This document shows, in pieces, positions 1-64,000 of a DNA stretch of 64,000 nt. Every line of letters begins with the position of its first letter. The first letter of the stretch is position 1. The position numbers and the translations under genes were made by a program. The DNA comes from Halichondria panicea. Taxonomy: Eukaryota; Porifera; Demospongiae; Suberitida; Halichondriidae. The stretch spans positions 620,001 to 684,000 of the forward strand of contig NC_087382.1 of NCBI RefSeq assembly GCF_963675165.1, read 5' to 3'. The notes under the pieces were generated by a model. It worked only from the letters and a program-made list of their open reading frames with translations, was not told the origin of the DNA and did no database searches.

Positions 1-1882
1 AAGATTTCCGACTTTGGCATGTCACGGCTTTACGATCCCTCCAAGCTTAGCTCCACCCTAACAGCCATTGGTCAGCGTAGAGGGTATCTACCTCCTGAGG
101 CCTATCGATTGGAAGAGGAGAATTACGATAATAGCCTGGATGTGTTTTCCTTTGGGGTGATTTTAACGCAGATTGTTTGCAAGTTAGAGACGATCAAATC
201 AGCCAAGGATCGATCATTCCATGTTGCCCAGATCCCTCGCACACACAGGTTGAGGAAGCTTATCGACAGTTGTTTGCAAGAAGACATGACGAGGAGACCA
301 TCTGCCAGGGACATCTGTGAGTCTATTAGATACGTAGTGCATGATAATTATGTGTTTACGCTTCCGAAAAATATGTCAAATTACTTTTTAATGTTTAATT
401 CTTACTTTTAGATGCTTCACTGACAAGAGACTCGGACCCAATGGAGGCAGCAAAGAGAGAGACGAAGGACACTCAACTAGTCAAGAAGGTGCGTACATGT
501 AGTGTGTGAATGAGATTCCTAATAACAATAGTACTGTACCCTAGGGTGCTGTTTCATTGTAAAAAGCATGTTAAGTTTTGTTACGTAATTCTTTAGAAAG
601 ATTACTATAGTACTGTAAATACTTGTACAATTGTGATATTCACGTCTTTTTCCTACCAGCGTTCCCCTGTACAGGCACACAGGGAACAGACTGAGCACAA
701 AGATGCTGAGCTGGTCAGGAGAGACGCCATCATTCAACAACAGAGACAGGTGATATGAAATGCAACACTCTAATTATTTTTGCAGAGCTATAGTAGAAGC
801 TTTGATCTGTTATAATCGTACTGTACATTCTAGTGGACTGGTGGGCGTCGCCTCTTAAGCTAATTAGAGAAAGTGATTTAGTGTGCATACAATTATTGCT
901 ACAAGTAACACTCGCTTGTTAGTAGACACTATCCTAATTACACTCATTCATTATTCAGGGTCCCCCTCCCAGAGAGTTGAGACCTCCACTCACTCTGAAA
1001 TGGAGAAGAGGAAAAAACATGCCAATCAAGATGGGCACCTCAGTACAGAGTGTTGTTATCGGTGACACGGCGTATGTTGGTGGAGGCAATGCAGACAATG
1101 ATCTTGACAAGTGTACAGTGATGAAGCTCGAGCAAGATCAATGGACTAAACTACCAGAGTACACTGCCAAGTGGTTCGCTGTGACATCATTCGCTAATCG
1201 ACTAGTGCTGGTGGGAGGACGTTATCAAAGAAACAACAAAGTCAGCAATCAACTTGCCGTCTTTAAGTCAGGGGAATGGACTCACCCGTACCCACCAATG
1301 AACATTGCTCGTAATTCTTCAACAGCTGTCTCCTTAAACAACTACATCATTGTAGCTGGTGGGGTTGATGATGAAGGACGTATCTCCTCCTCTGTGGAGG
1401 TGTTGGACGTGGCATCAAGAAGATGGTACATTGCTCAGTCACTACCTAACCCACGAGCAGTACGACAATCGACTCTCATAGGAAACACCCTCTACCTAAT
1501 GGGATGGTTCGATCACACTGGGGAACCAACCAAGACAGTGCACCACGTCGACCTCAATGAACTCATTGCAAAGGCCCTTTCCAACCTGGACACACCCACT
1601 CTCTGGCAGACCTTACAGGAAGTACCACTCGTGTTGTCAGCTCCTCTCAGTATTGGGAGGTTACTATTAGCTGTTGGTGGAGCAGACGACAGAGTCAACC
1701 CAAGTTCATCGATCCACCTCTACCAGCCTGACACCAGGAGGTGGGTGAAAGTGGGAGACCTGCCTACTGCACGATACCGCTGCACATGCTCAGTACTTCC
1801 TAGTGGAGAGGTCATTGTAGCTGGAGGAGAGACCAAAACTTTTTACGTTCAAACTGTGGACTTCTTCGCTATGAGTGCTTAG
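1..1882 (+). CDS. G1: TKL kinase (C-lobe only, 5' cut off) - coiled coil - kelch protein
   Basis: The 5' part is cut by the window edge. Exons: <1-316, 412-488, 675-749, 959-1882. The first exon opens in the kinase activation loop (KISDFGMSRL, the DFG motif), continues through the YLPPEAY segment (APE position) and ends at RRPSARDI; it is nearly identical to the G5 kinase, so G1 is probably a type-2 (Death-domain) unit. I end exon 1 at the strong GTGAGT donor (317) because it leaves phase 1, which joins in frame to the small exon at 412; reading through instead gives a stop at 409-411. Next come a charged linker (RDSDPMEAAKRETKD), a 25-residue coiled-coil exon ([16 protein letters not shown]) and a one-exon kelch domain of about 307 residues with repeated GG-doublet blades. 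Compared with G5 it lacks the heptad coiled-coil exons. Kinase substrate and ligand are unknown. Architecture is certain from the sequence; exact junctions are inferred. Confidence 0.8.
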
Positions 1883-2533
1883 TTGTTTTGTTACTAGCTA
1901 TTCACTACTAGCGTTCAATCGGAGACGGATCGGCCTGGGAACGAGGTTAACTACATGTATTCACTTGTTGTAATAGCATTAATTAGCAACGATCTTGATT
2001 ATTAATGTTTTTTCCTCTTGAAATAATAATAATTATTGTAACTATGATTATAAATGAGGAATGTAGTATGATCATGAGTTTGTACATAAGTACTTTAATT
2101 TGCATTGCCAGATCGATGCTTTTATAATTATAACAAATTATACACATAAATGTGTGTTTTATAGCTTGATAGATTAGCTTAAAAGATCAACATGTGGCAA
2201 ATTACATAACTCAAGACAACGTGCAGCATACCGCTCAGACCAAAGGAGTAACAACTAACATGACAATAATATGCATACTAGTTCAGAGTTCAGAGTTCTA
2301 GTCCTTACAATGTTTTATTACAAACTGAGTTCGTACGCATTGTCAGAATACTAACAACAAAACAGACAAAAATTAGGGTTAGGGTTAGGGTAACAATTTT
2401 GGTATACATTGTGCAACAGAATATATTGGGATTGTGTAGTTATCAAATTGTACAAATAATCAATGGCATGAGTTCGTACAAATTATTACATTGTCAGAAT
2501 AGACCACAAAAACAGACGAAATGTGTGACAGTT
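1883..2533. other. 3' flank of G1 kelch gene
   Basis: Non-coding AT-rich sequence after the kelch stop codon. It contains a short (TTAGGG)3 run at 2373-2390, too short for a telomere. The stretch from about 2400 matches the flank after the G6 kelch exon (61330-61450), so it belongs to the repeated unit. No other gene is seen. Confidence 0.6.
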
Positions 2534-2656
2534 TCATAACAAGTTCAGGTCCTTGGTTGGGGTCTTGTCCGAGGGTAAGGTGGACGCCTTTTCCCAGAAT
2601 CCAAAGTCTATCTCGATCCTCTTCTGAGTCAGACAGTGAGGGGTGGGGCTCGGGAA
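2534..2656 (-). pseudogene. N1: relic of the last exon of the minus-strand partner gene
   Basis: This matches the last exon of the minus-strand gene (best copy 35268-35386), which encodes a short acidic C-terminus (SDSEEEIDFGFWEK). Here a 4-base insertion (GATC, near 2613) shifts the frame, so this copy is broken. It lies convergent to G1, as the other copies lie to their kelch genes. Confidence 0.6.
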
Positions 2657-3267
2657 CTGAGGGGTTAAAAAGTCACATGGTCAAAGTCATACCGAGTGAA
2701 AGTTTGAAGACTTAGGAAGTAATGGGTGAGAAAATCACATGACAACAGAAATTATAGAGCACTGAAGTGCTAATCCTGCTATTGACATGAATAATAAAAT
2801 GGATCTATAGAAACTATGTCTTCAGACTGTCCCCCACTGCTTATACACAGAGAAAAGAGGTGTGCTGTTTTAGACCCTGAGCGTGTGCTATATTAGCACC
2901 GTGGTGTGCTAAACAGTGATTCAGCACACTACATGTGCTGTTTTGTAGGCATATAGCACAGCCTACGTGTTGTATTGGTGTGCTTTTTCATGGCTTGTGA
3001 TTTTGATGTTCGATTAATGTGCTAAATGGACTGTGCTAAATGTAATGGGTGTGCTGAAACAGGTAAACATGCTAATTCAGCACAGTGTGCTGTTTTCAGT
3101 ACCAAATAAGGGCATGCAGTACAACAGATGTGCAGCTGCAGCTGCATAGCAACAAAAATTTTTTTTTTATTTGCAAAGAAGAAAAGAAGTTGAGTTTAGA
3201 CATGGTTTGAGAGCTGTTTGACAAAACTGTGGAACTAGGTAAGTTTCCCTCAACATGCTGAACAATG

Positions 3268-3722
3268 CTGTACAATGTAATTGCACAGCTATTGTATTGT
3301 ACCAGGTGTCATACAGTACACAGGGGGAGCATCTGTACAATGTAATTGCACAGCTATTGTATTGTACCAGGTGTCATACAGTACACAGGGGAGCATCTGT
3401 ACAATGTAATTGCACAGCTATTGTATTGTACCAGGTGTCATACAGTACACAGGGGAGCATCTGTACAATGTAATTGCACAGCTATTGTATTGTGCCAGGT
3501 GTCGTACAGTACACAAGGGAGCATCTGTACAATGTAATTGCACAGCTATTGTATTGTACCAGGTGTCATACAGTACACAGGGGAGCATCTGTACAATGTA
3601 ATTGCACAGCTATTGTATTGTACCAGGTGTCGTACAGTACACAGGGGAGCACAGGGGAGCATCTGTACAATGTAATTGCACAGCTATTGTATTGTACCAG
3701 GTGTCGTACAGTACACAGGGGG
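3268..3722. repeat. 64-bp minisatellite, about 7 copies
   Basis: A 64-bp unit is repeated head to tail, with core words TGTACAATGTAATTGCACAG and TATTGTACCAGGTGTC. Copies differ at only a few bases. One unit contains a small internal duplication of aggggagcac (3640-3660). 64 is not a multiple of 3, so the open frames through it are an artefact of the repeat. Confidence 0.9.
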
Positions 3723-4078: not shown

Positions 4079-4532
4079 CGCGGCCTCGGTGGAGGTGCCA
4101 AAGCTACATAACATAAAACTACTAATAGCTAGCTTTTATACACACATTGATTGATGATAATTATTATTGCAATCACAGGGAAACTCGTAGTGATCGACCC
4201 ATGATTGTTGTTAAAAACGATTGATGCCTAATTAAAGTTCAAGTCTAAAATTAATGGCTGCAAGTCAGCAGAACCTTGCAGCTCTCTTCTCACTCTTGCA
4301 GCTAGTGTTCTAGTGCAGAACTAACTACTAAGTAGAGTAGCAACACTCGGTGAACGAGTTTTGCTACAGACTCTTCTGAAAAGGCTGCAATGGCATTCCA
4401 AGTAAGCAAAACCAGGCATAACTCGAGAACGAAGCTTTATTTAGCAAATCCACAAATAGCAATTAAGCCAAGAAAACATGACTAGAAGCCTATAGAAACT
4501 CTTACCTGCACTTCCTTGAGCAGCTGAAATAG

Positions 4533-4574
<42 letters not shown>

Positions 4575-4622
4575 AACACACTACCGTATACCTCGCTTGC
4601 GCATGCGCACCGCGAGGCATAA
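4079..4622. mobile_element. Family-M inverted-repeat element (MITE-like)
   Basis: It begins near gcctcggtggaggtgcc and ends near cttgcgcatgcgcaccgcgaggcat; the ends are a short imperfect inverted repeat (cctcggtg / caccgcgagg). The same sequence recurs at 14290-14460, 17545-18300, 19390-19970 and, inverted, at 30849-31385. It holds a (CA)n microsatellite at about 4535-4570 and no coding capacity. Confidence 0.6.
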
Positions 4623-6590
4623 TTACAGCGCCACTCTAATTGAAGGGCCAAATTCACAAAATAAATTATCCAATTAACCACGCCATTCGCAAAAATACGC
4701 CTAATTCCCTCTCCCGTCTAAAGTTCTTTCAAAATGGTGGTCGTACTTTTTTGAAGGTACTATATAATTAATTATTGTTGTAAGAATTGATGTGAAAAAC
4801 CGTATTGCAGGATGACGTTGAAAGTGACACGTGTTGGAGAGAGCATTATACTGGACACCCTTGTATGACTAGACCACTGTAAAGTATCGACACAATTGGA
4901 GGTATGTATTATTATTATGCTGCTGTATTGCCACAATGTTTTAGGTATAGTAGCTTCACCCAAAAAAACAATTGCAACAGTATACCATACTTATCTGACT
5001 TAGTTATCTGTCTATATACGTATACAGCGGTCAATATCCCATTCCGTTTGCGTAGTACGTTTAAAGTGTTTCCATTTTGATAAGTACTGTATTAAAAGCG
5101 TATTTTACTGTACCGTTGCTATATACCATTGCACTTTACAAATGCGGTGTGCTATGTTTTTGAATACAAAGCGACAATCCTCTAGTAACATAATATCTAG
5201 CTAAATTTTGCTTAGCTATAAGCCTATAGTTCTACATAGATCTAACAAGGAAATATAACGCACCATTCACCGCACTATTTTGATCTTAGCATAATTGCTA
5301 TAGCTATCTTACATGTAGCTATAATACAAAGCTAGCAAGCTGCAAAATTTCATGATAACTATAGCTGCATGGGGGTGACCAAAGTAATTTTACCAACAGA
5401 AAAAAGCTCTTATCTTGAGCGTCCTTTTTAGCGTTTAATTTGCGCTGTATCAGTGTATATTATGCACGTACTATGTAAACGTTTACCACTTTGTAAGTTC
5501 ATAATTGATAAAAATTGCTGCTACGGAAATCCCAAATTTCCTTGTGCGCAAAACGATTTTTGATTGCCACACACCCTCCTAATTAATGCAAATCTATACT
5601 GCCACCTGTAGCATATTGTCTGCCCGGCCTTGCAGCTGTAGCTGTTCCTCTTAAGCTAACAGTTCTATTGATATAATAATTTATAGGACAACGCAGTTTA
5701 ATTAAACTTTTATATCGTTTCGGATTAAGCTTTATATGCAGCTCTTTTCTGACAATTAAGGGAAGGCTTGTAGTGGATTATATTTGTTGTTTAGCCCTTA
5801 CAACGAGTATTGTCAGTGGAAGACAACTTCTCAATCTGCTTTCTGTACGAGATGAATTGATGGGCCCGAATATTGATGCTGCTCTATAATAGCACAACAA
5901 GAACTCATTTGCATTATCATAGTCTCGCAAACTTAATTGTACGTAAAAACGACTATAATGTCTTACTAAGAGTTCATTAGGAAGAGTACGCAACTCCACT
6001 AACCGTAGTAAGCATTCTGTCTAACCTACGTCACAATCACATGCTGTTGTATAAACTGTAAAATCTTGGCGATGATGGATGAATACGTTAGTGAGGTTAC
6101 CACTCATTGCTTTTCCTTATCAGCATTGTTATTGTTATTGTTGTATCTCAAGTGGCTGTGGTTACATGCAATAGTGAGTTTGCCTCCTGTGTACAGTCTA
6201 TTCGAGTAGCGTACCCTTCCTCTTGGTCTTATTTGTGTTATAGGACTCTTTCTGTAGCTACAATTTTTTGCTTTTGGTTCATGTACTTTTTCATGCACTC
6301 GGCATTTGTCATGGATCACAGCAAAGGCTTTTCTTATTTCGCCCTATAATAATTACAAGTTCCATTAGCATACTTTGTTCATGCATGCTATGACTGATGG
6401 TATGTACCTAATCTATACGCACTTTAATTATTCTTATACTTGGTTATGGCTTTATGTGACATATTTTTCTACTTCACGCATGCAGGTGATGCTGAGAAGT
6501 CAAAGGCAGTATCTTACAATTGCAGTGAACTGAGTGCAGACTTGCTATGGTTAACTAACTATGTTTACTTTCACTTTTATATCCTCATCG
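4623..6590. other. Unique AT-rich interior of the TA element
   Basis: No gene is recognised. A stretch near 5960-6060 matches the end of a MITE at 13880-14191. Open frames here are short and lack family motifs. Confidence 0.4.
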
Positions 6591-7566: not shown

Positions 7567-7569
7567 AAA

Positions 7570-9097: not shown

Positions 9098-9113
9098 GCA
9101 CGTTGGCAGCTAG

Positions 9114-10450: not shown

Positions 10451-10451
10451 C

Positions 10452-10766: not shown

Positions 10767-13700
10767 ATGGCTGCAATGTTTTCTCTTAGAGATGACGCTA
10801 ACTTGAGGGAGTTTGTGCTGGAGAATGTGGAGCACTTTGGAGAAGAGAGAGTTCTAGGAACTGGCTCCTATGGCTCTGTTCAAGAGGTCAGTCACTGCAT
10901 GCTCTGTTTCTGTGCACTGTCTCTAGTGTATCTGCTAGCTATTGAAGTGTGACTGCCTCCATGCACAGGTGATGATCAATGGTGAGGTGTATGCAGCCAA
11001 GAAGATCCACGAGGTTCTCCTGGAGACGGACAAGCGTGGTGGAGTGGCCAACATAGCTGGCAACTACCACCGAGAGTGTCGACTCATGGCTCGCATCCGT
11101 CACCCAAACATCACCCAGTTCATTGGGCTGTGTTTCGTGACTGGCTCTCGACTGCCCCTCCTGGTCATGGAGAGGCTGGACTCAAGTCTGGACGATCTCC
11201 TGGAGTCTACTCCCAACATCCCCCTCTCTGTCTGCCAGTACATTCTGGTCTGTGTGGCTCAAGGGCTGCTCCACCTGCATTGTGAGTCCGTGATCCATCG
11301 TGACCTCACTGCTAGGAACGTCCTGCTGACGGTATCTCTGAGAGCCAAGATCACAGACTTTGGTAACTCTCGTATCGTGAATCTGGAGCCTGGTCGACTG
11401 GCCAGGACTCTGACGAGGTTTCCTGGGACACTGGTGTACATGCCGCCCGAGGCCCTCTCTGACGGAGGCCACAGTGTGTACGGACCCAGTCTGGACGTCT
11501 TCTCTTTCGGAGTGCTGCAATTATTTGCACTCACACAAGTATGTTATTCGTTGGTAAATTCCTATAATTGTTGATGACCTTCACTCCTAATTACATATAC
11601 AGTATTGTGGCTTTGTATGTGTTGGGTAGATTCCCCTAAATGGTTGACCTTTATCTGTGTACTAATGGAATCATCTAGCCTCGATTCCAGGCCGCTAAGA
11701 GAGGGCCTGGTATCGACTGTTTGCGCATGCGCCACCTATTACCCAGAAAGTGGGTAATTCGGATACCATTGTATTTTGCTCAGTAAAACAATGACGTCAC
11801 AACAAACGGAAGTGGATTGAAGAAAGTGGATAGAAGTGTGATTGTAGCCCGTGTGATAGCATTCTAATAGCTACCCTTAGCCTACTATATTAACAAAGGA
11901 CTCACAGCCTGCAACCGTGTGGATAACAATCCTCTGAACGGAGGGGAAGGCTGACAATAGCCTATATGGATAGGCCACGCCCATCTGACACTAACCTTGG
12001 TGAAAGTCGACTCTATCAGAAAGAAATTGCTGCTGTAACCAATACAGCTCTGTCTCTAGCTAGCTAGCTATATAGCTCTGTGTCTGACTTTATGAAGAGT
12101 ATTCTTTGTCTGTATAATTATGTTATTCAGGATATAATTCGGGTAAAAATTCAGTTTAATGGAAACATTACGGGAATATTATCCAATAATTTGACGCATG
12201 CGCAAGCAGTCAGTAGCAGGCCTAATTGTTTAGGCCTTGAGAAGGAGGCTAGGAATCATCATGCTCTTCCACTCCAGGTGTAATGATTGTGACACATGTA
12301 CACTTCATACATACGTACATGTATACATGCAATCATGACACTCAGTATTGACATACTCTTCCACTCCAGGTGTTTCCAGGAGATCTCCTTGCCCCTACGT
12401 ACAGCGACCCCAACAACCCAGACCACCTTCTGGCTCGCTCAGAGTTTGAGCGTCGAGGTCCCTACACGGCTCTCCTTGAGAGGAGTTTGGCGGGTGGACG
12501 TGAGCACCCTCTGTTTGGTCTGGTGAGGGAGTGTCTGGCCAACACCCCAGAGAGAAGACCGGCCACCACTGACCTCCTCTCGTCTCTGGAGGAGGTGGGG
12601 AGGGAGATGGACGGAGGACTGCTCCAGCTGGACATTGCACGAGTGAAGACTGCCAGGACCCTCAGGGCAAAGGAGAAGAGGATAGAGGTTCTACAGGTGA
12701 GACCAGTCCAGTGAGCTAGTGGGTGCAAGGGTCTGACACTGCATGCTGTACTCTGTTCTCAGAGAGAGGTGGTCGAGAAGGACAGGATACTGGAGAGGAA
12801 AGATGAGCAACTGACTGAGAAAGACGCACTTCTGGCACAAAAAGATGAGGAAGTAGCAGACAAAGATACTCAGCTTGCTAGACAGCAACAGGTAAGTAAT
12901 TTTATTACTTCACTTTTACTAGCAATTTCGTATTATGCTGACCATGCAAGTTAATAACTTTTTCACTTTATACAGATATCGAATAGTGTCCGTGCTGATG
13001 CTGCCACCAAAGATGGTATGATTGCTGACAAAGACAGACAACTCAGTGAACTGGAGTCAACAATTATTTCCCAGAGAGAGGCTGCTCTAGTTGAGAGGGA
13101 CGCTCTCTTACAGGTATTATAGTAGTCACCAAATGCACACACTCTTATACTCCACCGTCTTTGTTCTGAATAACAATTAATTTGAATCTGGAAATGGTCT
13201 ACATTTGTAATGACAAAATAATTATCGAGAATTGGTTCTTAGAATAAGTGTGGAGGTAACAAGATATTCGCATTACAGTGACCTGGTTGCCACTGCTCAA
13301 TATTTTTAAGACCTTAAAACGTTTGTGATCCAGCTATATAATTATCTGCACTCAAAGTAGTTTTCCATGATGACTCGCTTTTTATACAATTTGAATGTAA
13401 ACCGCTGATGTGGCGTCTTAATAACTGAATTGCATGTCCTACCTGGACAAGATAGTCTCGTTGACCAGCCGATATATTATCGTCTGGCAAATTACACATG
13501 AGCTACTTGTGCAGCGGTCTAAGTGGCTGTTTACGTTGATAATTGGTTAGTGGTTAGAGGACGGATGTGTGAAACCACATAATTAGATTTGCCAAATCTA
13601 CTTTAGCTAGCGGTGCAGCTGTGCGGTTTCACAACTTACTACAAACACTTATCAGCCACTTAGAGCGCCACGATATTTGTGGCGCGGTCAACACAACTCT

Positions 13701-26121: not shown

Positions 26122-26871
26122 GATCCCCCTCCCAGAGAGTTGAGACCTCCACTCACTCTGAAATGGAGAAGAGGAAAAGACATGCCAATCAAGATGGGTT
26201 GCTGCGTACAGAGTGTTGTTATCGGTGATGCAGACAATGAGCGTGACAGGTGTACAGTGATGAAGCTCGAGCAAGATCAATGGACCAAACTACCAGAGTA
26301 CACTGCCAGGTACTTCGCTATGACATCACTCGCTAATCGACTAGTGCTGGTGGGAGGACGTGATCCAAGAAACAACAAACAAACCAATCAACTTTCTATG
26401 TTTGAGTCAGGGGAATGGACTCACCCGTACCCACCAATGAACATTGCTCGCGTATCCTCAACAGCTGTCTCCTTCAACAACCACATCATTGTAGCTGGTG
26501 GGAATGATGATAAAGGACATATCTCCTCTGTGGAGGTGTTGGACGTGGCATCAAGAAGATGGTACATTGCTCAGTCACTACCTAACCCACGAACAATACT
26601 GAAATCAACTCTCATAGGAAACACCCTCTACCTAATGGGAGGGTACGATCACATGTGGTCAACCAAGATAGTGCACCACGTCGACCTCGATGAACTCATT
26701 GCGAAGGCCCATTCAAACCTGGACACACCCACTCTCTGGCAGACCTTACAGGAAGTACCACTCGAGTTGTCAGCTCTTCTCAGTATTGGGAGGTCACTAT
26801 TAGCCGTTGGTGGACGGGACGACAGAAACGAACCAAGTTCATCGATCCACCTTGGTTGGGGTCTTGTCTGA
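26122..26871 (+). pseudogene. Orphan kelch exon, C-terminally truncated
   Basis: It has a kelch-type acceptor (attcattatttag) and the DPPPRELRPP start in phase 0, with about 249 codons open. Four to five kelch blades are intact. After SSSIHL the sequence jumps into the minus-strand gene's last exon (ggttggggtcttgtc), so the last blade is lost and a stop follows five codons later. No kinase or coiled-coil exon of its own precedes it. It could be an alternative terminal exon of G2 or a non-functional duplicate. Confidence 0.6.
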
Positions 26872-47500: not shown

Positions 47501-50500
47501 TTATTCCAAGTTCCTGGTCAATATGATATAATAATTATGAATTTAAATGAATTGTAAAATGAATTTTAACATAATAGTATGATATAGATCCAGTTAGCTT
47601 GCCTTGCTTGCATGCTCACTTCTTAGCCAGCTTGCGAGTCAGCTCTCATCACAGAGACATCCGGTTGCTGGGTGGGGCTCGAAATGACTGCATTATAGGT
47701 GCATTCTTGAATATAAGTGTATAGAGCTCTGCTATTGACCCCAAAAGCGCATGCGCTAATAATCCAGTTTCTACGGTACTGTGTGATACAGAATGAGATT
47801 CCTAATTACAGCCACAAACAACAGTATAGGGTGCTGTTTCATTGTTAAGCATGTTAAGTTTCGTACGTAATTCAGGTTTTAAACTAACGAGCGCTAAGTC
47901 CCATAAATTAGAGCTAGCTAAATTACAATAAAAAACTGATAATAGCTGTAGTAAAGCCATAATACCATATATAACGAGTAATTTTCGGGGGGCAAAATAT
48001 TTGTGGTTGAGCAATATTTATATAGTCACTTTGTGGATAATATTTTCGTGGTTGCTGCTTGCACTGCAGGTAAAGATAGACAAGGTCGTTTCATTCGTGA
48101 GTATTCGTGGTTAGACCTTCAATCACAAAAGCCACGAAAATTACCCGCTATACGGTACCTTGACTAAAGGGGGGATCCGTGGCACCCTGGGATCTCCCCC
48201 TGGATCCGCCACTGTTTAGCGTAAATTTGTTCTGTAGTACTGTAAATAATAGTCCAATCTACAATTATAATGTTTACAAGAGGATAGAGGCTCTACTGGT
48301 GAGTCCAGTCCAGTGAGCTAGTGAGCTAGTGGGTGCAAGGGTCTGACACTGCATGCTGTACTCTGTTCTCAGAGAGAGGTGGTCGAGAAGGACAGGATAC
48401 TGGAGAGGAAAGATGAGCAACTTGTACAGAAAGACGATCAACTGGATCAGAAAAACGCACTTTTGGTACAAAAAGATGAGCAAGTAGCGGACAAAGATAC
48501 TCAACTTGCTAGGCAGCAACAGGTCAGTAGAATTTTTACTTCACTTTTTACACGCAATTTCGTATTATGTTAACCCTTTTCCCCGCTTTAACCGACTATA
48601 GTCGGCATGGCTACTGCTAATTTTCAAAAAATGATTGTGCGAGCTGTGTTGGAGCTATGCACACACTGTAAGTACCAGCACATGTGCATTGAGCTGCTCT
48701 TTCACATGGTATTTTCATTGTGCTGCCTCGAGGTACGCTTCATACAGTATTGTCAAAAGAAAAGTGACCAATTGATAATTGCTACAAGATCTTGGTAGGA
48801 TAATCTTAGTGAGGCTCTAGTGCAGCTAGACAGTGAGGATATAGATGCTTATGACCTTGTTGAGTCAGAGGGGAGTGATGACTGTGATCATAGCCATGCA
48901 GATAGGAAGCTACTCCTCAGAGTTCAAGCTAGAAATAAAAAGCCTGAAGAGCCAGAGGAAGAAGCTCGTGAATTTAGCTCTTGAGACTGACCAAGTTCCT
49001 GGACCTGGTAAGTAACTATAGAGTAGCATCTGTAGTCTTCCTAGCTTCAATATTACTTTGTTTAGGCAGCAGTGGACATCATGAGCCAACATTGAACTTG
49101 TAAACCTGTAGGTGAAGAAAACATTTCCCGGGAAAAGAGCGTCTGCCAATACGACCTCATAGACAAGTTTCTGCAGATTCTGATTGAACCATGTTGCCGT
49201 GAAAACATTGAGAACACTTATTTAGTGCCTTCATACAATAATTATTGTTTGTGTACATACTTGTGAATGTTTGTAAACAATTGCTAATTAGTTGGGGGTG
49301 GTCTGTTGCTAGGTAACGATGATGGTGTCAAGATGCCTCCGGGGTCTGGGCTACCTGTATAGGAAATAGTTACGAGTGATTTCAATGTATGGTTCATGAG
49401 ATACGAATTTTTAAAGAAAAATATGTATTTATTCTGTATTTTCTTGTTTTAATTAAAGCTGGGAAAGGGTTAACCATGCAAGTTAATAATTTCTCTTCAT
49501 ACAGATATTGAATAGTGTCCATGCTGATGCTGCCACCAAAGATGGTATGATTGCTGACAAGGACAGACAACTCAGTGAACAAGAGTCAAGGATCACTGAT
49601 CTCATTTCTCAGAGAGAGGCTGCTCTAGTTGAGAGGGACGCTCTCTCACAGGTATTATATAGTAGTCACCAAATGCACACACTCTTATACTCTAGTACAG
49701 TACAAGAGTGTAGAATTGTCCACTGATACAATAATAATATTCATGTCTGTGTTCTAATTAGAAGATTTCCACCAACGTTCCCCTGTACAGGTACACGGGG
49801 TACAGATGGAGCACAATACTGAGCTGGTCAGGAGAGACGCCATCATTCAACAGCAGAGACAGGTGAGATGAATCCATATTATTGCAGAGCTATAGTAGAA
49901 GCTTTGATGTTATAGTTTGTACATTCTAGTGGGCTGGTGGTCTTCACCTCTTAAGCTTCAGTATAGCGAGTAATTTTTAGGGGGAAAAATATTCGCGGTT
50001 CAGCCATTTTGAGACATTTCGTGGGTAATATTTTGAGACATTTCGTGGTTGCTGCTTGTACTGCTGGGAAGGGTAGGCAAGGTCGTTTCATTCGTGGGTA
50101 AAATATTCGTGGTCAGACCTTCAACTAGAAAACCACGAATATTTTGCCCCCCCGACATTACCCTTCATATGATAATTAGAAAAAGTGATTTAGTGTGCAT
50201 ACAATTATTGCTACAAGTAACACTCGCTTGTTAGTAGACACTATCCTAATTACACCTGCATTCATTATTCAGGATCCCCCTCCCAGAGAGTTGAGACCTC
50301 CACTCACTCTGAAATGGAGAAGAGGAAAAGACATGCCAATCAAGATGGGCTACACAGTACAGAGTGCTGTTATCGGTGACACGGTGTATGTTGGTGGAGG
50401 CAGTGCAGACAATGATCGTACAGTGATGAAGCTCGAGCAAGATCAATGGACGAAACTACCAAAGTACACTGCCAAGTGGTTTGGTATGACATCACTCGCT

Positions 50501-51187
50501 AATCGACTAGTGCTAGTGGGAGGACGTGATCCAAGAAACAACACACCCAGCAATCAACTTTCAGTGCTCGAGTCAGGGGAATGGACTCACCCGTACCCAC
50601 CAATGAACATTGCTCGTCAATCCTCAACAGCTGTCTCCTTCAACAACCACATAATTGTAGCTGGTGGGCGTGATGGTGATGGTCGTATCTCCTCCTCTGT
50701 GGAGGTGTTAGACGTGGCATCAAGAAGATGGTACATTGCTCAGTCACTACCTAACTCACGATCAGAACTGAAATCAACTCTCATAGGAAACACCCTCTAC
50801 CTAATGGGAGGGTACGATCACACTGGGCCAACCAAGACAGTGCACCACGTTGACTTCAATGAACTCATTGCCAAAGCCCTTTCCAACTCGGACACACCCA
50901 CTCTCTGGCAGACCTTAGAGGAAGTGCCGCTCGAGTTGTCAGCTCCTCTCAGTATTGGGAGGTCACTATTAGCCGTTGGTGGAGCGAATGACAGAGTCAA
51001 CCCAAGTTCATCGATCCACCTCTACCAGCCTGACACCAGGAGGTGGTTGAAAGTAGGAGACCTGCCTACTGTACGATACTGCTGCACATGCTCAGTACTT
51101 CCTAGTGGAGAGGTTATTGTAGCCGGAGGACAGATAGTAAATAAGATTAAAATCCAAACTGTGGATTTCTTCTCTATAAGTTCTTAG
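44502..51187 (+). CDS. G5: Death domain - TKL kinase - coiled coil - kelch protein
   Basis: Exons 44502-44817, 45362-46168, 46257-46333, 48373-48522, 49505-49651, 49791-49862, 50273-51187; about 827 residues. The Death domain (LTIADLNKVYL, DPDDCYREGLLEWL, SWQSMVKAL) ends in phase 1. The one-exon kinase (807 bases, phase 1-1) has GKGAFGAV, CAVKVL, IIHRDLCGDN, SDFGMSR and YLPPEAY. Death domain plus kinase is the Pelle/IRAK arrangement, although the kinase is only generally TKL-like. After the linker come heptad coiled-coil exons copied from a type-1 gene, then kelch. The kelch exon is nearly identical to that of G4. The intron 46334-48372 holds three transposons. The kinase ends at a strong GTGAGT donor (46169). 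Confidence 0.82.
45009..45309. mobile_element. TA-flanked MITE just before the G5 kinase exon
   Basis: Inverted ends CCGTATAGCGGGTATATTTC / GAAATATACCCGCTATACGG, TA on both sides, 301 bp. It ends 52 bases before the kinase exon. Confidence 0.85.
46347..47776. mobile_element. TA-flanked MITE with a nested family-M variant
   Basis: Ends CCGTAGAAACTGGATTATTA and its inverse, TA at 46345-46346 and 47777-47778. The empty site (acatgtagtgtgtgaatgag) is seen in G1 and G4. It lies 13 bases after the donor of the linker exon. Its interior was split by the element 46450-47310, the inverted copy of 14893-15750. Confidence 0.8.
47965..48155. mobile_element. TA-flanked MITE (CCGTATAGCGGG group)
   Basis: 191 bp, left end ccatatataacgagtaattt and right end aaaattacccgctatacgg, TA at both flanks. 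Confidence 0.7.
48277..48299 (+). pseudogene. Broken 3' end of a type-1 kinase exon inside G5
   Basis: aagaggatagaggctctact is the last 20 bases (KRIEAL) of type-1 exon 3, followed by its donor region (gtgagtccagtccagtgagc). Sequence upstream is unrelated. It marks where a type-1 gene tail was joined to the type-2 gene. Confidence 0.8.
48574..49469. mobile_element. piggyBac-like element in G5 coiled-coil intron
   Basis: 896 bp, inverted ends ccctttt.cccgcttta / taaagctgggaaaggg, TTAA at 48570-48573 and 49470-49473. G2 shows the unoccupied intron at 12936-12950 (tatgctgaccatgcaag). Confidence 0.85.
49960..50174. mobile_element. Degenerate MITE before G5 kelch exon
   Basis: gtatagcgagtaatttttag... 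and ...gcccccccgacattaccctt are imperfect inverted ends of the CCGTATAGCGGG group. It interrupts the stretch cctcttaagctaattagaga that is intact before the other kelch exons. Confidence 0.6.
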
Positions 51188-54532: not shown

Positions 54533-57500
54533 ATGGCTGCAATGTTTTCAGCTCTTCGAGATGACGCTAACTTGAGGGAGTTTGTGCTGGAGAATGTGGA
54601 GCACTTTGGAGAGGAGAGAGTTCTAGGAACTGGCTCCTATGGCTCTGTTCAAGAGGTCAGTCACTGCATGCTCTGTTTCTGTGCACTGTCTCTAGTGTAT
54701 CTGCTAGCTATTCAAGTGTGACTGCCTCCATGCACAGGTGAAGATCAATGGTGAGGTGTATGCAGCCAAGAAGATTCACGAGGTTCTCCTGGAGACGGAC
54801 GAGCGTGGTGGAGTGGCCAACATAGCTGGGAACTACCACCGAGAGTGTCGACTCATGGCTCGCATCCGTCACCCCAACATCACCCAGTTCATTGGGCTGT
54901 GTTTCGTGACTGGCTCTCGACTGCCCCTTCTGGTCATGGAGAGGCTGGACTCATGTCTGGACGATCTTCTAGAGTCCACCCCCAACATCCCCCTTTCTGT
55001 CTCCCAGTACATTCTGGTCTGTGTGGCTCGAGGGCTGCTCCACCTGCATCGTGAGTCCGTGGTCCATCGTGATCTCACTGCCAAGAATGTCCTGCTGACG
55101 GCATCTCTGAGAGCCAAGATCACAGACTTTGGTAACTCTCGTATCGTGAATCTGGAGCCTGGTCGACTGGCCAGGACTCTGACGAGGTTTCCTGGGACAC
55201 TGGTGTACATGCCGCCCGAGGCCCTCTCTGACAGAGGCCACAGTGTGTCCGTACCCAGTCTGGACGTCTTCTCTTTCGGAGTGCTGCAATTGTTTGCACT
55301 CACACAAGTATGTGTTTAGATCCTCTGCAGTATTGCAGTTTGCTTTGTGTAATGGGGTATTCTTATCTATACATGTACTGTGGTATTGTATGTGTTGGTA
55401 AGTGGTTGACTTTTGCCTGTATTACGCAAATGCAGTGTGTACTAATGGAACGAGTGCTGCGCTGTGCTAATGCCTCTCGCCATGTTTTGCTTTTGCTCAA
55501 AAACTATAGTTGTATCTCACCTTGGATCGATACAACTATATAGCTAACAGTCTCATAAACTATTAAAAACAAAACAAAAAGCTTTTCCGTATAGCTTGTA
55601 GCCAGTGCAAGCTTCTATAGCTCTTTGTACTGACCATGTCCAAGCAGTGAGCCCCACCTATATTCCAGCCTTCCCGAGCCCCATGCAGTCCTGCCCTTGT
55701 CAACATGTGTCTAGCTTCTTTTAGCTGTGTATAGATCTACTATAAAATCAGTGCGCCCTCAAGGCAAGGGAGTTTATGAGGAATGCGGGAGTTTATGGTA
55801 GTTAAATCCCACCCAGTTGCTATGCAAGACCCCAAGTGGGGTATATAGAATATGTTATTACTGAATTGAATTCCACACAGTCATTATTAGGAGCTTAATG
55901 AAACAGAAGCCTATCTGATGGCTTGATGAATAATCTTCAATACACATGTATATGGTCTGTAGCCAAAGTGTAGGCCTATATGACAATTATATTATACATT
56001 ATTCTATAACCATAGCATTTATTGTCGTGTTTTGTGGCTTACCAGGACCTCAAGAAAAAGAAGTAAATTTGATTCTGCCAGGATCTGGATTCTCTCACTC
56101 GTGGGGATGAGCGCGCATGCGCATTGCATCCACATTGCATCCACAGTACTACACAAATATATATAAATAAGGGGTGTGTATGCAAAGGGATCAAATTCAC
56201 AAATGGTTGCTTTAACAGCTCTTTTCTGACTCTTGTAGCTAACAAAAAGCTAGCGCTTTAGTGCAAGGCTAACTCATGTGTTGAATAGAAAGTTTGTGCA
56301 GACGGATGATACTATGAAAGATTCTGAAGAGACTTCACCAGCCGTCAATGTGAGTCAAAGTAGCCATAACTCGAGAAAGCTTTAGTTTGCTAATCCACGA
56401 ATCAAAATCCTACAACGTCCTACACTGAATTGTTCATCCATCCTACCCCATGCATCCTTCTTCGTCCTACACTGGATTGTTCAGCCATCCTACCTTATCG
56501 CACCCTTATCATACATCCTACCCTGTAGCAATATATGAGATGATGTGGAGAGCACTCACCCCACTGATTGTTCATCCATCCTACCTTCTGCTCCCCCGTC
56601 CTACCACAACCTTCTTTGTTCAACACTGGATTGTTAATACTGGATTGCATGTTCAGCCATCCTACCTTATCGTACCCTATCATATATACATCCTACCACG
56701 TCCTACAAAGAATTAGAAAATCGCTAGAAGTCTGTTAGTTTTCGTCGCATATTGCAACCGTTGAGCAGTTACAGCTGGAATACACACACACACACACACT
56801 CTTATGCGGCTACGCCTCGGGGCATAATAATTGTGACACATGTACACTTCATATATATACACGTACACTCAGTATTGACATGCTCTTCCACTCCAGGTGT
56901 TTCCAGGAGATCTCCTTGCCCCCACGTATAGCAACTCCAGCGACCTTGACCACCTCCTAGCTCGCTCAGAGTTTGAGCGTCGAGGTCCCTACACGGCTCT
57001 CCTTGAGAGGAATCTGGCGGGTGGACGTGAGCACCCTCTGTTTGGTCTGGTGAGGGAGTGTCTGACCAATACCCCAGAGAGAAGACCGACCACGGTTGAG
57101 CTCCTCTCGTCTCTGGAGGAGGTGGGGAGGGAGATGGACGGAGGACTGCTCCAGCTGGACATTGCACGAGTGAAGACTGCCAGGACCCTCAGGGCAAAGG
57201 AGAAGAGGATAGAGGCTCTACAGGTGAGTCCAGTCCAGTGAGCTAGTGGGTGCAAGGGTCTGACACTGCGTGCTGTACTCTGTTCTCAGAGAGAGGTGGT
57301 TGAGAAGGACAGGATACTGGAGAGGAAAGATGAGCAATTAACTGAGAAAGATGCACTTTTAGTGGAAAAAGACAATCAACTTGAACAACAAAGATACCAG
57401 AAAGATGCACAAGTAGATACTCAGCTTGCTAGACAGCAACAGGTGACTGGTCAGCAGAACATTTACTGTATACAAGTTAACCATACATGTAGCCTCGATT

Positions 57501-60500
57501 CCAGACCGCACTGAGGCCTTGTGAAGGAGGCTACCATACATGTTGATTATCTTTATTCACTTCACACAGATATTGAATAATGTCTGTGCCACCAAAGATG
57601 GCATGATTGCTAACAAGGACAGACAACTCAGTGAACAAGAGTCAAGGATCATTGATCTCATTTCCCAGAGAGAGGCTGCTCTAGTTGAGAGGGACGCTCT
57701 CTTACAGGTATTATAGTAGTCACCAAATGCACACACTCTTATACTCTAGTAATGTACATGAGTGTAGAATTGTCCATTGCTACAATAATAATATTCAAAT
57801 CTGTGTTTTGATTTACCAACGTTCCCCTGCACAGGCACACAGGGAACAGATTGAGCACAAAGATGCTGAGCTGGTCAGGAGAGACGCCATCATTCAACAG
57901 CAGAGACAGGTGAGATAAAATGAACCAGTAAGCTTTGATCGGTTATATCATAGATAGTAGAGTGGAAACATCACAGGTGACCAATGTATTGCCTTGGAGA
58001 ATTCCACTATGCGTGTTGCATTCCGCAAGTGTTGATTGCGATTGATTGCGAGCCAGATGCAAAGACAATAGAGAATAAAGTGAAGAAAACTGCAGTAAGC
58101 ACTGGCAAAGCTAGTCTGTATGTACATTATCCATATAGTAAATGTATGGTTTACATCATGTACCTAATTTATTTGATCATCAGAGGTCCATGTAGCACTG
58201 TTTTACATGTATTTAGCTGGGAAAATTGAAGGTATGAAACTTTGTGGGGGATATCTTGAGCTAGGAAGTAGTCATGATTGCTTGAGAGTGATCACAGTGT
58301 AGAGGGAGCATTGAAATATGCCTTAGGCATAGCCAAGTTGAGCATTGTGCTGTTTATTGTTGGATATTAACATAGAAGTGTGAAAAAAAGAATTCAAAAG
58401 TACATTTGTTTGCGGGGGAGTTGCTGGTTAACAATAGATTGTACATCACTATTGTTTAGGTCTACATATTTACATATTGCCTAATGATCCCGATGTGCCT
58501 TATAGCTAACCTGTATAGTTTTTGAAATATGCTAATTCAAACTTACCCGTAAATTGGGTACTCAGAACATTAGTTCTAAGGATCTGCCAATTAGACCCTT
58601 TGGAAAAGTTTGGCATGCCAATGACAGGGGGAAGGGACACATGATAACCCCACTTATTCATTACGATTGGTCAATTCTTTTGCAAAAGCTGTGTAGTGAC
58701 CTGATGACGGATACGTACACCACTATACCTAAACGTCAGACTTATGTTTTGTGTTTGTAAACATAATCATTTCTCCATGCATCCTTTGTGATTGTGTGAA
58801 TCATAATGTTAAAAATAAGTATGCATCTATATGAACTGTGCCTAGTACTATATACATTTAGTGCTGATCACATGATCTCCAGCCAATCAGCTTATCTGAA
58901 AGCAGTCAGGTGACCATGGATTAAATAACTTAATCCACACTTAAGTGTGCTCTAAGTTGGTTAAGTGTGCTTTAAGTTGGTTTGTTAATGCACACTTTTT
59001 ATCAAACAACCATAATACAAGCAGATTGAATCTGAATGTCATCATAATTATAATAATAATACAAGCACAAGCAGATTGAATACGTACACAAGCAAAGCTG
59101 AAAAGTATTAGAAAGTTGAATGTTATTGTTTCGACTTGTTTCATGTGTACCAAATTGCTGACTTGATCATAGCATCGTTTTTTCGTCTGAAGAAATAGGC
59201 CCAGCTTGCTTCGAAGATGTACATACCTGTACCTAATTAAGCCAGATCCATATAATCGTTTCATCAAAGGTGCTTCGAATATCATAGCTTTCCAAAAGAG
59301 CAAACCAGATACTCATTGCCATATAGTTTGCGCACAAAGTTTCCCATCCAGTAAGCCAGATCAGCTGGAGGCATATCCAGTAGTATAGTGGGATCGGGAC
59401 TGTTGGTCAGCAGGAGAAATAAGTCGAGAACATGCCCAGTCAGTCCAGATAGCTTTAGATAGTATCTCCTTCTCCATTGCATCAGTTACTGGATCTACAA
59501 ACCTACTAAAACTTGCTATTACGTCTAGCTAGCTAGCTAGCCACCAGCAACTGATTTAAAATGTAGCTAGATTTAGCTGCCACGAGGCTAGAGCTCACGT
59601 GACATAGCTGCCACGAGGCTAGAGCTCACGTGACAGCACTAAATCCTTTAGAACACACCTAGCCAAGTCACGTGTTTTAATCTGGTGCACTCGGATGGCC
59701 TCTCGGTTACGTAATGCTCTCGGCTGCGCCTCGAGCACCACGTTAACCTCGAGGCCATCCTCGGCACGCAGATTAAAACACTTAATCTTGGCTAGGTGTG
59801 TTCTAAATAATACATAGACTCTTGTGGGTGCATGCCTTCAATGTTCTTTGAAGGTTTGTTGAGGACATGTAATTTTTCAATGCAACACTCAGAGAAAAGT
59901 CTCATTCTGATGTAAGAACAACAAACAAACAAAGAAACTAGTTAAGATCTATGTATGTAGCTATGTTAGCTATGTATGTAGCTACTATCCGGCCAGAGAA
60001 GCTATAACTAGCTGTTCACTCTCTTTTGGCCCCAATTAAATTAACTTCCTGTCTATTTCCGGTGCGACACGCATGGGCCGCGTGAAATCCCTGTGTTTCC
60101 AATCCCTTCCCTCTACTGTCTATGGTTATATTCTTAAGACACTATCCTATAATTACGCTCATTCATTATTCAGGGTCCCCCTTCCAGAGAGTTGCTCACT
60201 CTGAAATGGAGAAGAGGAAAAGACATGCCAATCAAGATGAGTGGCTCGATACAGAGTGTTGTTATCGGTGACACGGTGTATGTTGGTGGAGGGCTTGCAG
60301 TCAATGATCATGATATGTGTACAGTGATGAAGCTCGAGCAAGATCAATGGACCAAACTACCAGAGTACACTTCCTATTGGTTCGCTATGACATCACTCGC
60401 TAATCGACTAGTGCTGGTGGGAGGACGTGATCCAAAATCCTGCAATCAACTTTCTATCTTTGAGTCAGGGGAATGGGCTTATCCGTACCCACCAATGAAC

Positions 60501-61077
60501 ATTGCTCGTTCTTCCTCAACAGCTGTCTCCTTCAACAACCACATCATTGTAGCTGGTGGGCGTGATGATAAAGACAAGCGTATCTCCTCTGTGGAGGTGT
60601 TGGATGTGGCATCAAGAAGATGGTACATAGCTCAGTCACTACCTCACCCACGATCAACACTGAAATCAACTCTCATAGGAAACACCCTCTACCTAATGGG
60701 AGGGAGCGATTACACTGAAAGGGCAACCAAGACAGTGCACCACGTCGACCTCAATGAACTGATTGCAAAGACCCTTTCCAACTTGGACACATCCACTCTC
60801 TGGCAGACCTTACAAGAAGTACCACTCAAGTTCTCAGCTCCTCTCAGTATTGGGAGATCACGATTAGCTGTTGGTGGACGGGACGGCCGAGGCAGCCCAA
60901 GTTCATCGATCCACCTCTACCATCCTGACAACCAGGAGGTGGGTGAAAGTGGGAGACCTGCCTACTGCACGATACAACTGCACATGCTCAGTACTTCCTA
61001 GTGGAGAGGTCATTGTAGCCGGAGGACACGCAAACACTGATTACATTGAAACTGTGAACTTTTTGTCAATAAGTTAA
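54533..61077 (+). CDS. G6: TKL kinase - coiled coil - kelch protein, frameshift in last kelch blade
   Basis: Exons 54533-54655, 54738-55307, 56897-57223, 57290-57442, 57570-57707, 57835-57909, 60174-61077, all phase 0. Kinase motifs are complete ([31 protein letters not shown]). The coiled-coil exon has 51 codons. In the kelch exon, one extra A near 60930 (gacaacc versus gacacc) moves the frame; translation then ends at 61001, giving about 737 residues, while the normal C-terminus (WVKVGDLPTARY...) continues in the next frame to 61077. This is either a real truncation or a sequence error. The kelch exon also has a 9-base in-frame deletion at its start. The last intron (57910-60173) carries the repeat 58860-59808. 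Confidence 0.78.
55450..56830. mobile_element. Damaged family-M variant in G6 intron 2
   Basis: Starts gcgctgtgctaatgcctctc and ends gcggctacgcctcggggcat as in 46450-47310, but is interrupted by unrelated sequence and by an imperfect tandem repeat (catcctacc, 56410-56710). Confidence 0.55.
57491..57532. repeat. Mini-hairpin with MITE ends in G6 intron
   Basis: tagcctcgattccagaccgc and tgaaggaggcta face each other over 42 bases. Probable internal-deletion relic. Confidence 0.5.
57960..58859. other. G6 last intron, unique part
   Basis: No similarity to other parts of the window and no recognised gene. Short open frames have no domain motifs. Confidence 0.4.
58860..59808. repeat. Interspersed repeat, copy 2 (copy 1 at 21055-22896)
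   Basis: Same sequence as copy 1 without the piggyBac insertion. It ends with the same long palindrome (59647-59808). Confidence 0.75.
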
Positions 61078-61500: not shown

Positions 61501-61619
61501 TTTTATGCTTGCAGAGCGGAAGCTGAGGACTCGACAGTTGCCTTGTCTCTGTGTGGCAGGGGAGTGTGTGTGTGTGCGTGTGTGTGTGTGTGTGTGTGTG
61601 CAGGAGGAGTGAGGGGGCA

Positions 61620-63069: not shown

Positions 63070-63264
63070 CCATATAGCTAGAAATTTCTGCGGCCAAAAA
63101 CTTCTGCGAATTCTGCAAATGAATGAGCAAACGCATGCAGTCCTCAAATGCTTATTAACCACGCCTAATTTAACAGTTGAAAATTTAATTCGCAGAAATA
63201 TTATCCGCAGACTGAAGGTATTTTTACAGCTATTCCCAGGCCGCAGAAATTTCTAGCTATACGG
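63070..63264. mobile_element. TA-flanked MITE
   Basis: 195 bp with inverted ends ccatatagctagaaatttct / agaaatttctagctatacgg and TA on both sides. The inner motif gcagaaat repeats in both orientations. Confidence 0.75.
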
Positions 63265-63479
63265 TAGTACGTATAGACACTCAATCAATACAACTAGTAG
63301 CTAGAGCAAATTTTAGGAGGGTAGGAATTGGAGCTAGAGGAGGGGATATCCCCCTTCCCCCCCACCCCTCTACCAAATAGATAAAGTCACTCACAATTCA
63401 AGTTCCCTCACTTGAGCCAGGAGATGGTACAGTTCCAGAGACAATTCACTCCTGAAGATGGAGGATATAGACAGTGAGT

Positions 63480-64000
63480 ACATGTACCAACACCACTGTG
63501 TCTGACTATAGGATTGCTATAACACGCCCACACACTGGTCGGTGGTGTTTGGTACTAACCACCTCTAGACCAAAATAACCACCTCTTAGGCCTAGTTACT
63601 ACACACACGCAAACAGAGGCATATGTGTGTGTTGAATTGAGATTGAGAGGATTGAAGATAACCATCACTTCCAACATTCTGGAACATCCACTGCTACAAT
63701 ACAAGCCAATGCAATGTCTACAGAACCATCTAGAGTTTAGGAAGTAACAGAAGGAGTGTGTTATTAGGTGCTATTGGTTGATAAGTACCACTCACTGATG
63801 AGCTTAGGTCCAGCTCCTGTCTCTTGTTACTCTGTGTTTAGCAATCAGCTCTAGCAGTAGTATCTATCCTACAGCAGCTAGGTCTCCAAACTGATTTATG
63901 TTGTGTCCTCTAACAATGCTGTCAAAAGTGAAGGTAAGCTCAGTAGCTGCAAAAGAGCCATTGAGCACAAGTTCTGCATTTCACTTGTTTTCTAAATGAC
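63480..64000. repeat. Start of the next unit's spacer (copy of 28380-28940)
   Basis: It matches 28380-28940 to the last base of the window, including the possible minus-strand micro-exon (NKRQELDL) at about 63800-63835. The array probably continues beyond the window. Confidence 0.7.

Follow-up and report, generated by a model that had tools for sequence, protein, structure and literature searches.

A large kinase-kelch gene family in the sponge Halichondria panicea with a hypervariable propeller face, probably encoding receptor-like proteins

Introduction

Sponges harbour dense microbial communities and reject grafts, and the kelch fold is known mainly as a ubiquitin-ligase adaptor. The closest precedent in evolutionary behaviour for the genes described here is the fungal genes HET-D and HET-E, in which four interaction-surface residues per WD40 repeat are under diversifying selection and exchange takes place between genes (PMC1805685). 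In the sponge Dysidea avara 126 NACHT and LRR genes were reported, some with Death-domain N-termini (PMC12909245). Kelch and tyrosine kinase occur together in a few genes of Entamoeba (PMC2939887), and in tables of another sponge study kelch, Death and kinase genes are given as separate rows (PMC6208332). Here we describe a 64-kb stretch of the genome of Halichondria panicea (NC_087382.1, in our numbering C6:620001-684000; "the window") and the gene family of which it is a part, in which kinase and Death-like exons are joined, mostly through coiled-coil exons, to a terminal exon encoding a kelch propeller.

Like the Podospora HNWD genes, this is an exchanging family with a beta-propeller whose interaction-surface residues diversify. 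The HNWD genes, however, are fungal, combine WD40 with NACHT and have 10 members, whereas the sponge family combines kelch with kinase and Death-like domains and numbers more than 100; HNWD repeats shuffle within and between genes, whereas in the sponge it is apparently entire terminal exons that move (PMC1805685). The Dysidea NOD-like receptors (NLRs) are likewise an expanded intracellular sponge repertoire, partly with Death-domain N-termini, but in the present family no NACHT/NB-ARC, LRR or WD match to Pfam was found in two joined proteins (E<=0.01) or in the scanned module exons, and the word kelch is absent from the main text of PMC12909245. The Entamoeba proteins share the combination of kelch and kinase; they are from a protist, and the passage describing them mentions no Death domain, array or diversification (PMC2939887). 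KLHL proteins and Keap1 have the same six-blade kelch, and the residues variable here fall at the Keap1 ligand-contact registers in the Keap1 numbering assumed here; the present family differs in being kinase-fused and hypervariable, and no BTB or BACK domain was found in the two joined proteins (Pfam scan, E<=0.01). In the open-licence part of PubMed Central (print may differ) we found no report of kelch, Death domain and kinase together in a sponge, of a hypervariable kelch propeller under diversifying selection, or of a tandem kinase/kelch-repeat expansion in sponges. The family looks like an undescribed recognition repertoire.

Results

Two gene types recur, both ending in a kelch exon

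Two gene types were recognised. In the first, three exons of a kinase (K1) are followed by three coiled-coil exons (CC1, CC2, CC3) and one terminal exon. The second (DD) begins with a Death-like exon and a kinase encoded in a single exon (K2); a linker exon, 68-77 bases long, then leads to CC3 and the terminal exon. K1, coiled-coil and kelch exons are phase 0 and the K2 exon is 1-1; the same phases had been read in the initial annotation of the window (phase 0 almost throughout, type-2 kinase exon 1-1) and were found again at the junctions examined. Since each module is an exon of its own and the phases match, kelch cassettes can be exchanged between the two types.

One exon of the genome (131.5 Mb, 39 contigs) points to a siliceous sponge: it carries the serine active-site motif of silicatein, and its best PDB match is silicatein alpha (E 2e-12), followed by cathepsin S (3e-10). 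A pattern for this motif matched three times, two of the matches falling within Peptidase_C1 hits. The genome was searched with each module, the counts being lower bounds. At least 151 Death-like, 128 kelch, 136 K2-like and 44 GTPase-like matches were obtained, and at least 150 K1-like ones, 48 of them at 84% identity or more. After the distant ones had been dropped, 124 Death-like, 128 kelch, 48 K1, 118 K2 and 3 GTPase matches were retained for chaining. The kelch terminal exons (at least 128) are concentrated in arrays on C1 (15.5-17.4 Mb) and C6 (0.4-0.8 Mb), the latter including the window. Among the matches listed, a 16-kb rule gave 68 DD-K2-kelch and 40 K1-kelch chains genome-wide, with 5 DD-kelch, 4 K2-kelch, 3 DD-DD-K2, 1 K1-GTPase and 1 DD-K2-GTPase chains besides; 40 further DD-K2 chains had no listed kelch, many of which may be an effect of the kelch matches being a lower bound, and 25 modules stood single. 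The gap between K2 and kelch was 500-1000 bases in 55 of 72 cases, that between K1 and kelch 1.4-2.1 kb in 32 of 40. The order is thus more than chance, the same sequence of modules recurring in 68 and 40 chains with similar gaps. In the C1 array the 53 listed kelch exons of the minus strand come first and the 47 of the plus strand after them, at a median spacing of 9.2 kb. The main array (C1:15.48-17.39 Mb) is thus one large opposite-orientation pair, with all listed minus-strand kelch exons before all plus-strand ones.

When the first 25 residues of the terminal exon served as query, 150 copies were listed of 179 candidates, and 133 of the 150 had an open frame of 295 amino acids or more (17 a shorter one). 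Outside the window 56 DD and 33 K1 units with a full chain and within a length limit were listed, of which 37 and 20, respectively, were retrieved for analysis, plus one more (L038). K1 exons were joined at GT-AG junctions, GC being permitted after CC3 and the CC3 acceptor being sought within 14 bases. Continuous frames of 775-798 amino acids were obtained for 15 of the 20 K1 units; of the other five, four were in frame with one coiled-coil exon unplaced, and L039 was out of frame. Of the 37 DD units, 32 gave continuous frames of 726-745 amino acids, the exceptions being L002, L007, L020, L029 and L036. This count is weaker, since the DD donor, the two ends of K2 and the CC3 acceptor were each located by a limited search and the CC3 donor was accepted unchecked. 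AG and GT flank the linker exon in 38 of 38 units, and AG precedes the kelch exon in 58 of 58. Two joined proteins of units outside the window, one of them L035, showed complete Pkinase and kelch motifs in the Pfam scan (E<=0.01).

The joined proteins are mostly about 730-870 residues long. The highest 19-residue hydropathy had a median of 1.46 across 52 joined proteins, which argues against a typical membrane span, and the proteins are apparently soluble and cytosolic. CC1, placed in 19 of the 20 K1 units (L039-L058), measured 171, 192, 213, 234 bases and other lengths; the differences between paralogues were mostly steps of 21 bases, that is, one heptad.

Variation is concentrated on one face of the kelch propeller

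The kelch exons of the window matched Pfam Kelch_1 with E values of 3e-20 to 2e-27. An AlphaFold2 model derived from 47 sequences is a six-bladed propeller (mean predicted local distance difference test score, pLDDT, 87.8) with six double-glycine motifs and four-stranded blades, whose nearest folds are designed kelch proteins, KLHL12, KLHL3 and KLHL20, Keap1 following from rank 33. Counted from the double glycine, blade-averaged entropy was 1.75 at register -15, 1.90 at -14 and 0.88-2.05 at +2 to +10; it was 0.63 at -16 and at most 0.43 at all other registers.

Two sets of positions were compared: a wide face, comprising the loop after the double glycine of each blade and residues 14-16 before it (72 of 308 positions), and a narrow face consisting of the contact registers taken from Keap1 (30 of 308). 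In the 47-row alignment all 21 hypervariable residues lay on the wide face (p 4e-15) and 14 of the 21 at the Keap1 registers (p 2e-11); in the 58-row alignment 26 columns exceeded the same threshold, one of which (307) was off the face. In the Keap1 numbering assumed here, the ligand residues of Keap1 occupy registers -15, -14, +2 and +7, with +4 presumably an additional contact (Asn382). In an alignment to the kelch designs and KLHL12 the variable residue after the arginine faces their Ser or Gly and residue +2 faces Tyr or Phe. The Keap1 ligand residues include Tyr334, Ser363, Asn414, Arg415, Arg483, Ser508, Tyr525, Ser555, Ala556, Tyr572, Phe577 and Ser602 (PMC6891428). All 58 kelch exons had distinct face haplotypes, with a mean codon difference of 0.47 for face positions as against 0.11 for the framework.

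The coincidence of the face registers with Keap1 ligand contacts (in the numbering assumed here), together with the nearest folds being KLHL adaptors and kelch designs, would also fit a family of diversified substrate adaptors that bind many host proteins in the manner of Keap1 or KLHL, the kinases phosphorylating the bound substrates and selection acting on the range of each paralogue, with no role in immunity. This explanation appears unlikely. A face N/S above 2 (see below), 58 distinct faces among 58 exons and at least 100 kelch exons in one array are features commonly seen in genes for arms races or self-recognition, and they are atypical of housekeeping adaptors. The Death-like domains, moreover, point to immune or cell-death signalling.

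Selection differs between kinases, kelch framework and kelch face

Ratios of nonsynonymous to synonymous divergence (N/S) were calculated as uncorrected pairwise means over 20 K1 units, 35 of 38 K2 rows, 35 of 38 Death-like rows and all 58 kelch rows. The kinases are under purifying selection: the ratio was 0.09 in K1 exon 2, 0.36 in K1 exon 3, 0.16 for K1 as a whole and 0.37 for K2. It was 0.44 for the Death-like exon and 1.11 for kelch. For CC3 a value of 0.56 was set aside (5 of 57 rows contained stops, and some ends were misplaced), and the CC2 value of 2.09 was given no weight, 49 codons being too few.

When changes were counted on the kelch tree, 1376 nonsynonymous and 154 synonymous changes fell on the face (ratio 2.42), as against 470 and 310 off the face (ratio 0.50); the ratio was 1.25 over all sites and 2.22 at the Keap1-contact registers alone. 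With the registers rotated as a control, it was 0.43-1.68. Every one of the 14 sites with a nonsynonymous excess at p<0.01 (uncorrected) was on the face, as were two of the 17 kelch sites with a synonymous excess. The K1 units (face 2.10, rest 0.44) and the DD units (2.16 and 0.51) gave the same picture separately, and across the K1 units, the DD units and each arm of the C1 array the values ranged from 2.10 to 2.21 on the face and from 0.44 to 0.59 elsewhere. In 11 of the 12 closest kelch pairs most differences were on the face; the exception was the closest pair of all (L022 and L023), with 2 differences on the face and 7 elsewhere. The closely related kelch domains of L017 and L045, by contrast, differ by 18.8 nonsynonymous changes on the face and 5 elsewhere. 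One face of the propeller is thus under diversifying selection, with N/S above 1 at ligand-face sites and below 1 elsewhere, as in a diversifying repertoire. In 50 of the 58 units, those whose last intron is normal, the kelch exon had a diversity of 0.080 and the intron one of 0.022, a 3.7-fold difference; by codon position, kelch diversity was 0.084, 0.087 and 0.070 at positions 1, 2 and 3.

These values bear on the possibility that the locus is a neutral or decaying tandem array, produced by recent segmental duplication and released from constraint, with kelch ends that drift. Near-identical recent copies do exist, such as three protein-identical Death-like exons, and so do broken units (17 of the 150 listed terminal-exon starts in frames below 295 amino acids, and 5 of 37 DD units without a full frame). 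However, the ratio of 0.09-0.16 in K1, the kelch framework at 0.50 beside a face at 2.4, the 133 terminal-exon starts in long open frames and the retained catalytic motifs (see below) all speak against decay, and drift is unable to raise N over S at register-specific sites. In view of the K1 constraint, the kept motifs and the face-specific excess, decay was rejected as very improbable.

Kelch exons are not associated with the N-terminal type

The kelch tree, built from 58 rows, implies 16 changes of N-terminal type, against a mean of 16.7 in shuffled data, and 207-210 of 500 shuffles were as low; 7 of the 16 changes are forced by strong branches, and a single K1 clade is rejected (p 8e-39). 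Kelch distances were 0.0826 within and 0.0809 between N-terminal types, and the nearest kelch belonged to the same type in 28 of 55 C1 units (29.1 expected). Kelch lineage and N-terminal type are thus not associated. Distances correlated with r 0.40 between DD and K2; the correlations between K1 and kelch and between the two kelch halves were weak (r 0.19-0.20, p 0.09-0.10). A test of the pairwise homoplasy index (PHI) type for recombination was significant for K2 (p 0.002), not for K1 (p 0.12). That modules are exchanged with the frame kept, as the initial annotation had proposed, agrees both with the random distribution of types on the kelch tree and with two units of the window that still read through, the kinase-less U3 (433 amino acids) and the chimeric U4 (827 amino acids), described below.

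The kinases are complete and the N-terminal domain is probably a Death domain

Both kinase types match Pfam Pkinase. The motifs HRD....N, DFG and AxK were each present in 20 of 20 K1 copies and, among K2 copies, in 34, 35 and 35 of 35, respectively; by motif, both kinases are catalytically complete. The best matches of K1 exon 2 in the PDB were an EGFR entry (9p9u), a lectin receptor kinase, IRAK4, other plant receptor-like kinases and RIPK1, and those of K2 were EGFR, roco4, CSK, CTR1, B-RAF and LIMK, a ranking that is not a phylogeny. No IRAK was among the best 60 of 2408 PDB matches of K2. The Death domain with kinase had been taken for the Pelle/IRAK arrangement. The pairing of a Death domain with a tyrosine kinase-like (TKL-like) kinase does resemble IRAK/Pelle and RIPK1, and K1 has IRAK4 and RIPK1 among its best matches. 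The identity, however, fits poorly and was not adopted: the K1 gene type has no Death domain, the Death-like domain goes with K2, for which no IRAK appeared among those 60 matches, and the proteins here end in kelch.

Two further arrays of related kinases were observed. A second large array, at C3:0.87-1.71 and 2.39-2.46 Mb, contains K1-like kinases about 45-49% identical, mostly in frames of 380-590 amino acids; in one example (L068) a kinase is followed by a coiled-coil-like stretch within a single exon, with no kelch in the retrieved piece. A small K2-like array lies at C15:0.68-0.77 Mb (42-45% identity).

The Death-like domain is probably a FADD-like Death domain. The copies of the window are under the Pfam Death cut-off (one at E 0.086, the other without a match), and 17 of 36 family copies matched at E<=10, the best at 8e-4. 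Searched against the PDB at E<=10, the family profile gave 13 matches, of which 11 were FADD (0.0019-0.054) and the other two weak (PIDD and a death-domain protein, 1.4 and 1.6). Two relatives on C3 (E 1e-15 and 3e-14 with the DD query) overlap Pfam Death matches of 34.4 and 33.1 bits (cut-off 22.6). L036 (C28) has, 5' of K2, a single open frame that contains both a canonical Death domain (64.9 bits) and the Death-like domain; in L038 it is a canonical Death domain (54.8 bits) that immediately precedes K2. Against the assignment, the joined L035 protein had no Death match at E<=0.01. Of the three protein-identical full-length Death-like exons, one is in the window. About 110 residues without a Pfam match precede the canonical domain of L036, and at C12:5.90-6.14 Mb (for example L070) distant Death-like domains, 38-48% identical to the window copies, stand in tandem.

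Layout of the window

The window holds one same-strand set of six module chains (U0-U5) and one orphan kelch exon, all exons given below being on the plus strand. The initial annotation had described six tandem units sharing coiled-coil exons; the six chains were found again, together with the orphan, a truncated exon of 249 amino acids (26122-26871) that had to be added, and coiled-coil exons were placed in five of the six, none being placeable by alignment in U3. The domain searches it had called for gave matches of window exons to Kelch_1, Pkinase and AIG1. The genes U1-U5 are open throughout when joined, the sole stop being the final one.

U0 begins upstream of the window edge, with its Death-like exon at C6:617539 and the kinase start at C6:619509. 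The window itself contains the 3' part of its K2 exon (a one-exon TKL-like kinase, 1-369, located by sequence search of the genome), the linker exon (412-488; aligned over 412-484, the 3' end being set from a 77-base reference exon), CC3 (675-749, by alignment) and an intact kelch terminal exon of 307 amino acids (959-1882, by Pfam match and open frame).

U1 (10776-12696 for K1, with exons 10776-10886, 10969-11538 and 12370-12696, all phase 0) continues with CC1 (12763-12891), CC2 (12976-13113) and CC3 (15797-15871) and, after a last intron of 7.5 kb, with a terminal exon (23330-24595) in which about 45 kelch-start codons are fused in frame to an AIG1-type GTPase; the joined K1-CC-GTPase frame has 871 amino acids. 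The GTPase exon scored 53.3 bits against Pfam AIG1 (cut-off 27, E 3e-14), and a stand-alone relative, 85% identical and without the kelch start, scored 59.9 bits. The initial annotation had listed the GTPase as one of the alternative output modules. Within the window this ending occurs once, and it looks like a single fusion present in two near-copies and not like a regular alternative.

U2 (866 amino acids, K1-CC-kelch) has its K1 exons at 29951-30064, 30147-30716 and 32419-32745, CC1 at 32805-33017, the CC2-CC3 pair in duplicate (33080-33220 with 33306-33380, and 33527-33673 with 33803-33877) and a kelch exon of 312 amino acids (34083-35021). In U3 (36.9-40.7 kb) the kinase body is missing: a Death-like exon (37100-37418; donor GTAAGT, phase 1) is followed by a 68-base linker exon (38721-38788), which lies 3' of a remnant of the K2 3' end, and by a kelch exon of 304 amino acids (39785-40699), so that the kinase was lost with the phase preserved and DD, linker and kelch join to 433 amino acids. 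U4 consists of a Death-like exon (44502-44817, phase 1 donor), a K2 exon (45362-46168, phase 1-1) with GKGAFG, AVK, HRD and DFG all there, a linker exon (46257-46333), coiled-coil exons of the K1 type (48373-48522, 49505-49651 and 49791-49862) and a kelch exon of 304 amino acids (50273-51187). It is a chimera of both gene types, in which K1-type CC1, CC2 and CC3 stand between K2 and kelch in a frame of 827 amino acids. U5 (734 amino acids) comprises K1 (54542-54655, 54738-55307 and 56897-57223), coiled-coil exons (57290-57442, 57570-57707 and 57835-57909) and a kelch exon shortened to 275 amino acids with a divergent C-terminus (60174-61001).

A 64-base unit is repeated in tandem at 3268-3721 (6.9 copies, 92% matches). 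Another repeat, dispersed and about 440 bases long, with copies about 82% alike, occurs at 4187-4626, 19532-19970 and, inverted, at 30844-31259; it may aid unequal exchange.

Discussion

Taken together, the results make it fairly probable that the genes belong to a large family that was amplified recently and encodes soluble, receptor-like proteins of the cell interior, which join a hypervariable kelch face to exchangeable kinase and Death outputs. The suggestion that the locus is a local diversifying array serving recognition or signalling in the sponge looks right. Kelch itself had been regarded as an output module; as its one face carries diversifying selection, it is better read as the recognition end.

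The six-bladed C-terminal kelch propeller would be the hypervariable recognition domain, one face of which, kept diverse by positive selection, would bind a changing ligand, presumably a microbial or an allelic self protein. The coiled coil of variable length may assemble the protein, and assembly on the ligand would activate kinase K1 or K2; in the DD type the FADD-like Death domain would then recruit adaptors. Unequal exchange probably moves kelch cassettes between both N-terminal types, and kinase-less, double-Death and GTPase-ended variants would be among its products.

Several observations weigh against this interpretation. The wide face was chosen after the variability profile was known, and the parsimony counts and their p values presuppose a single tree on which changes are independent; resolution of the kelch tree is poor, with 26 of 55 inner branches open and bootstrap unsettled. 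Synonymous diversity in kelch (0.076) is about 3.5 times that of the adjacent intron (0.022), and CC3 is as diverse as kelch (0.092, some CC3 ends being misplaced). Amino-acid selection on kelch alone fails to explain either; the synonymous excess would fit homogenisation of the flanks, the long maintenance of old kelch variants or a mutational process focused on the exon. As to exchange, some linkage remains between K2 and kelch (r 0.30, p 0.006) and between DD and kelch (r 0.29, p 0.001), and recombination inside kelch was not significant in the PHI-like test (p 0.24). The AlphaFold2 model of the Death-like domain (36 sequences) was unusable (pLDDT 47.7), and comparison of its profile with nine canonical Death domains of the same genome gave a probability of 4%, close to no match. 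Finally, a further upstream exon may encode a signal peptide.

The repertoire might also serve allorecognition rather than pathogen sensing, the kelch domains telling self from non-self between sponge individuals as HET-D and HET-E do in the fungus. Sponge allorecognition is generally placed at the cell surface, whereas the present proteins look cytosolic, which makes this explanation quite doubtful, even though the signature is that of the Podospora HNWD family: a few diversifying surface residues per blade in an exchanging family (PMC1805685).

The preferred interpretation, a family of receptor-like proteins with a variable kelch end, has a wider form, for which the chances seem about even: that this is an animal repertoire with the kelch propeller as its variable domain, independent of NLR, TIR and LRR receptors, in which a cassette of at least 128 copies is shared, through exchange of exons, by two kinase chassis and is also found on Death-only and GTPase chassis. 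Its logic would be comparable to that of the fungal HNWD genes and of the variable lymphocyte receptors of vertebrates. The variable residues can now be named, and the ligands can therefore be searched for with matched kelch pairs that differ mainly on the face. If the interpretation is true, the family would be an extensive recognition repertoire based on a fold best known from ubiquitin-ligase adaptors, and propellers with a diversified ligand face, coupled to death and kinase signalling, would have arisen in animals as they did in fungi.

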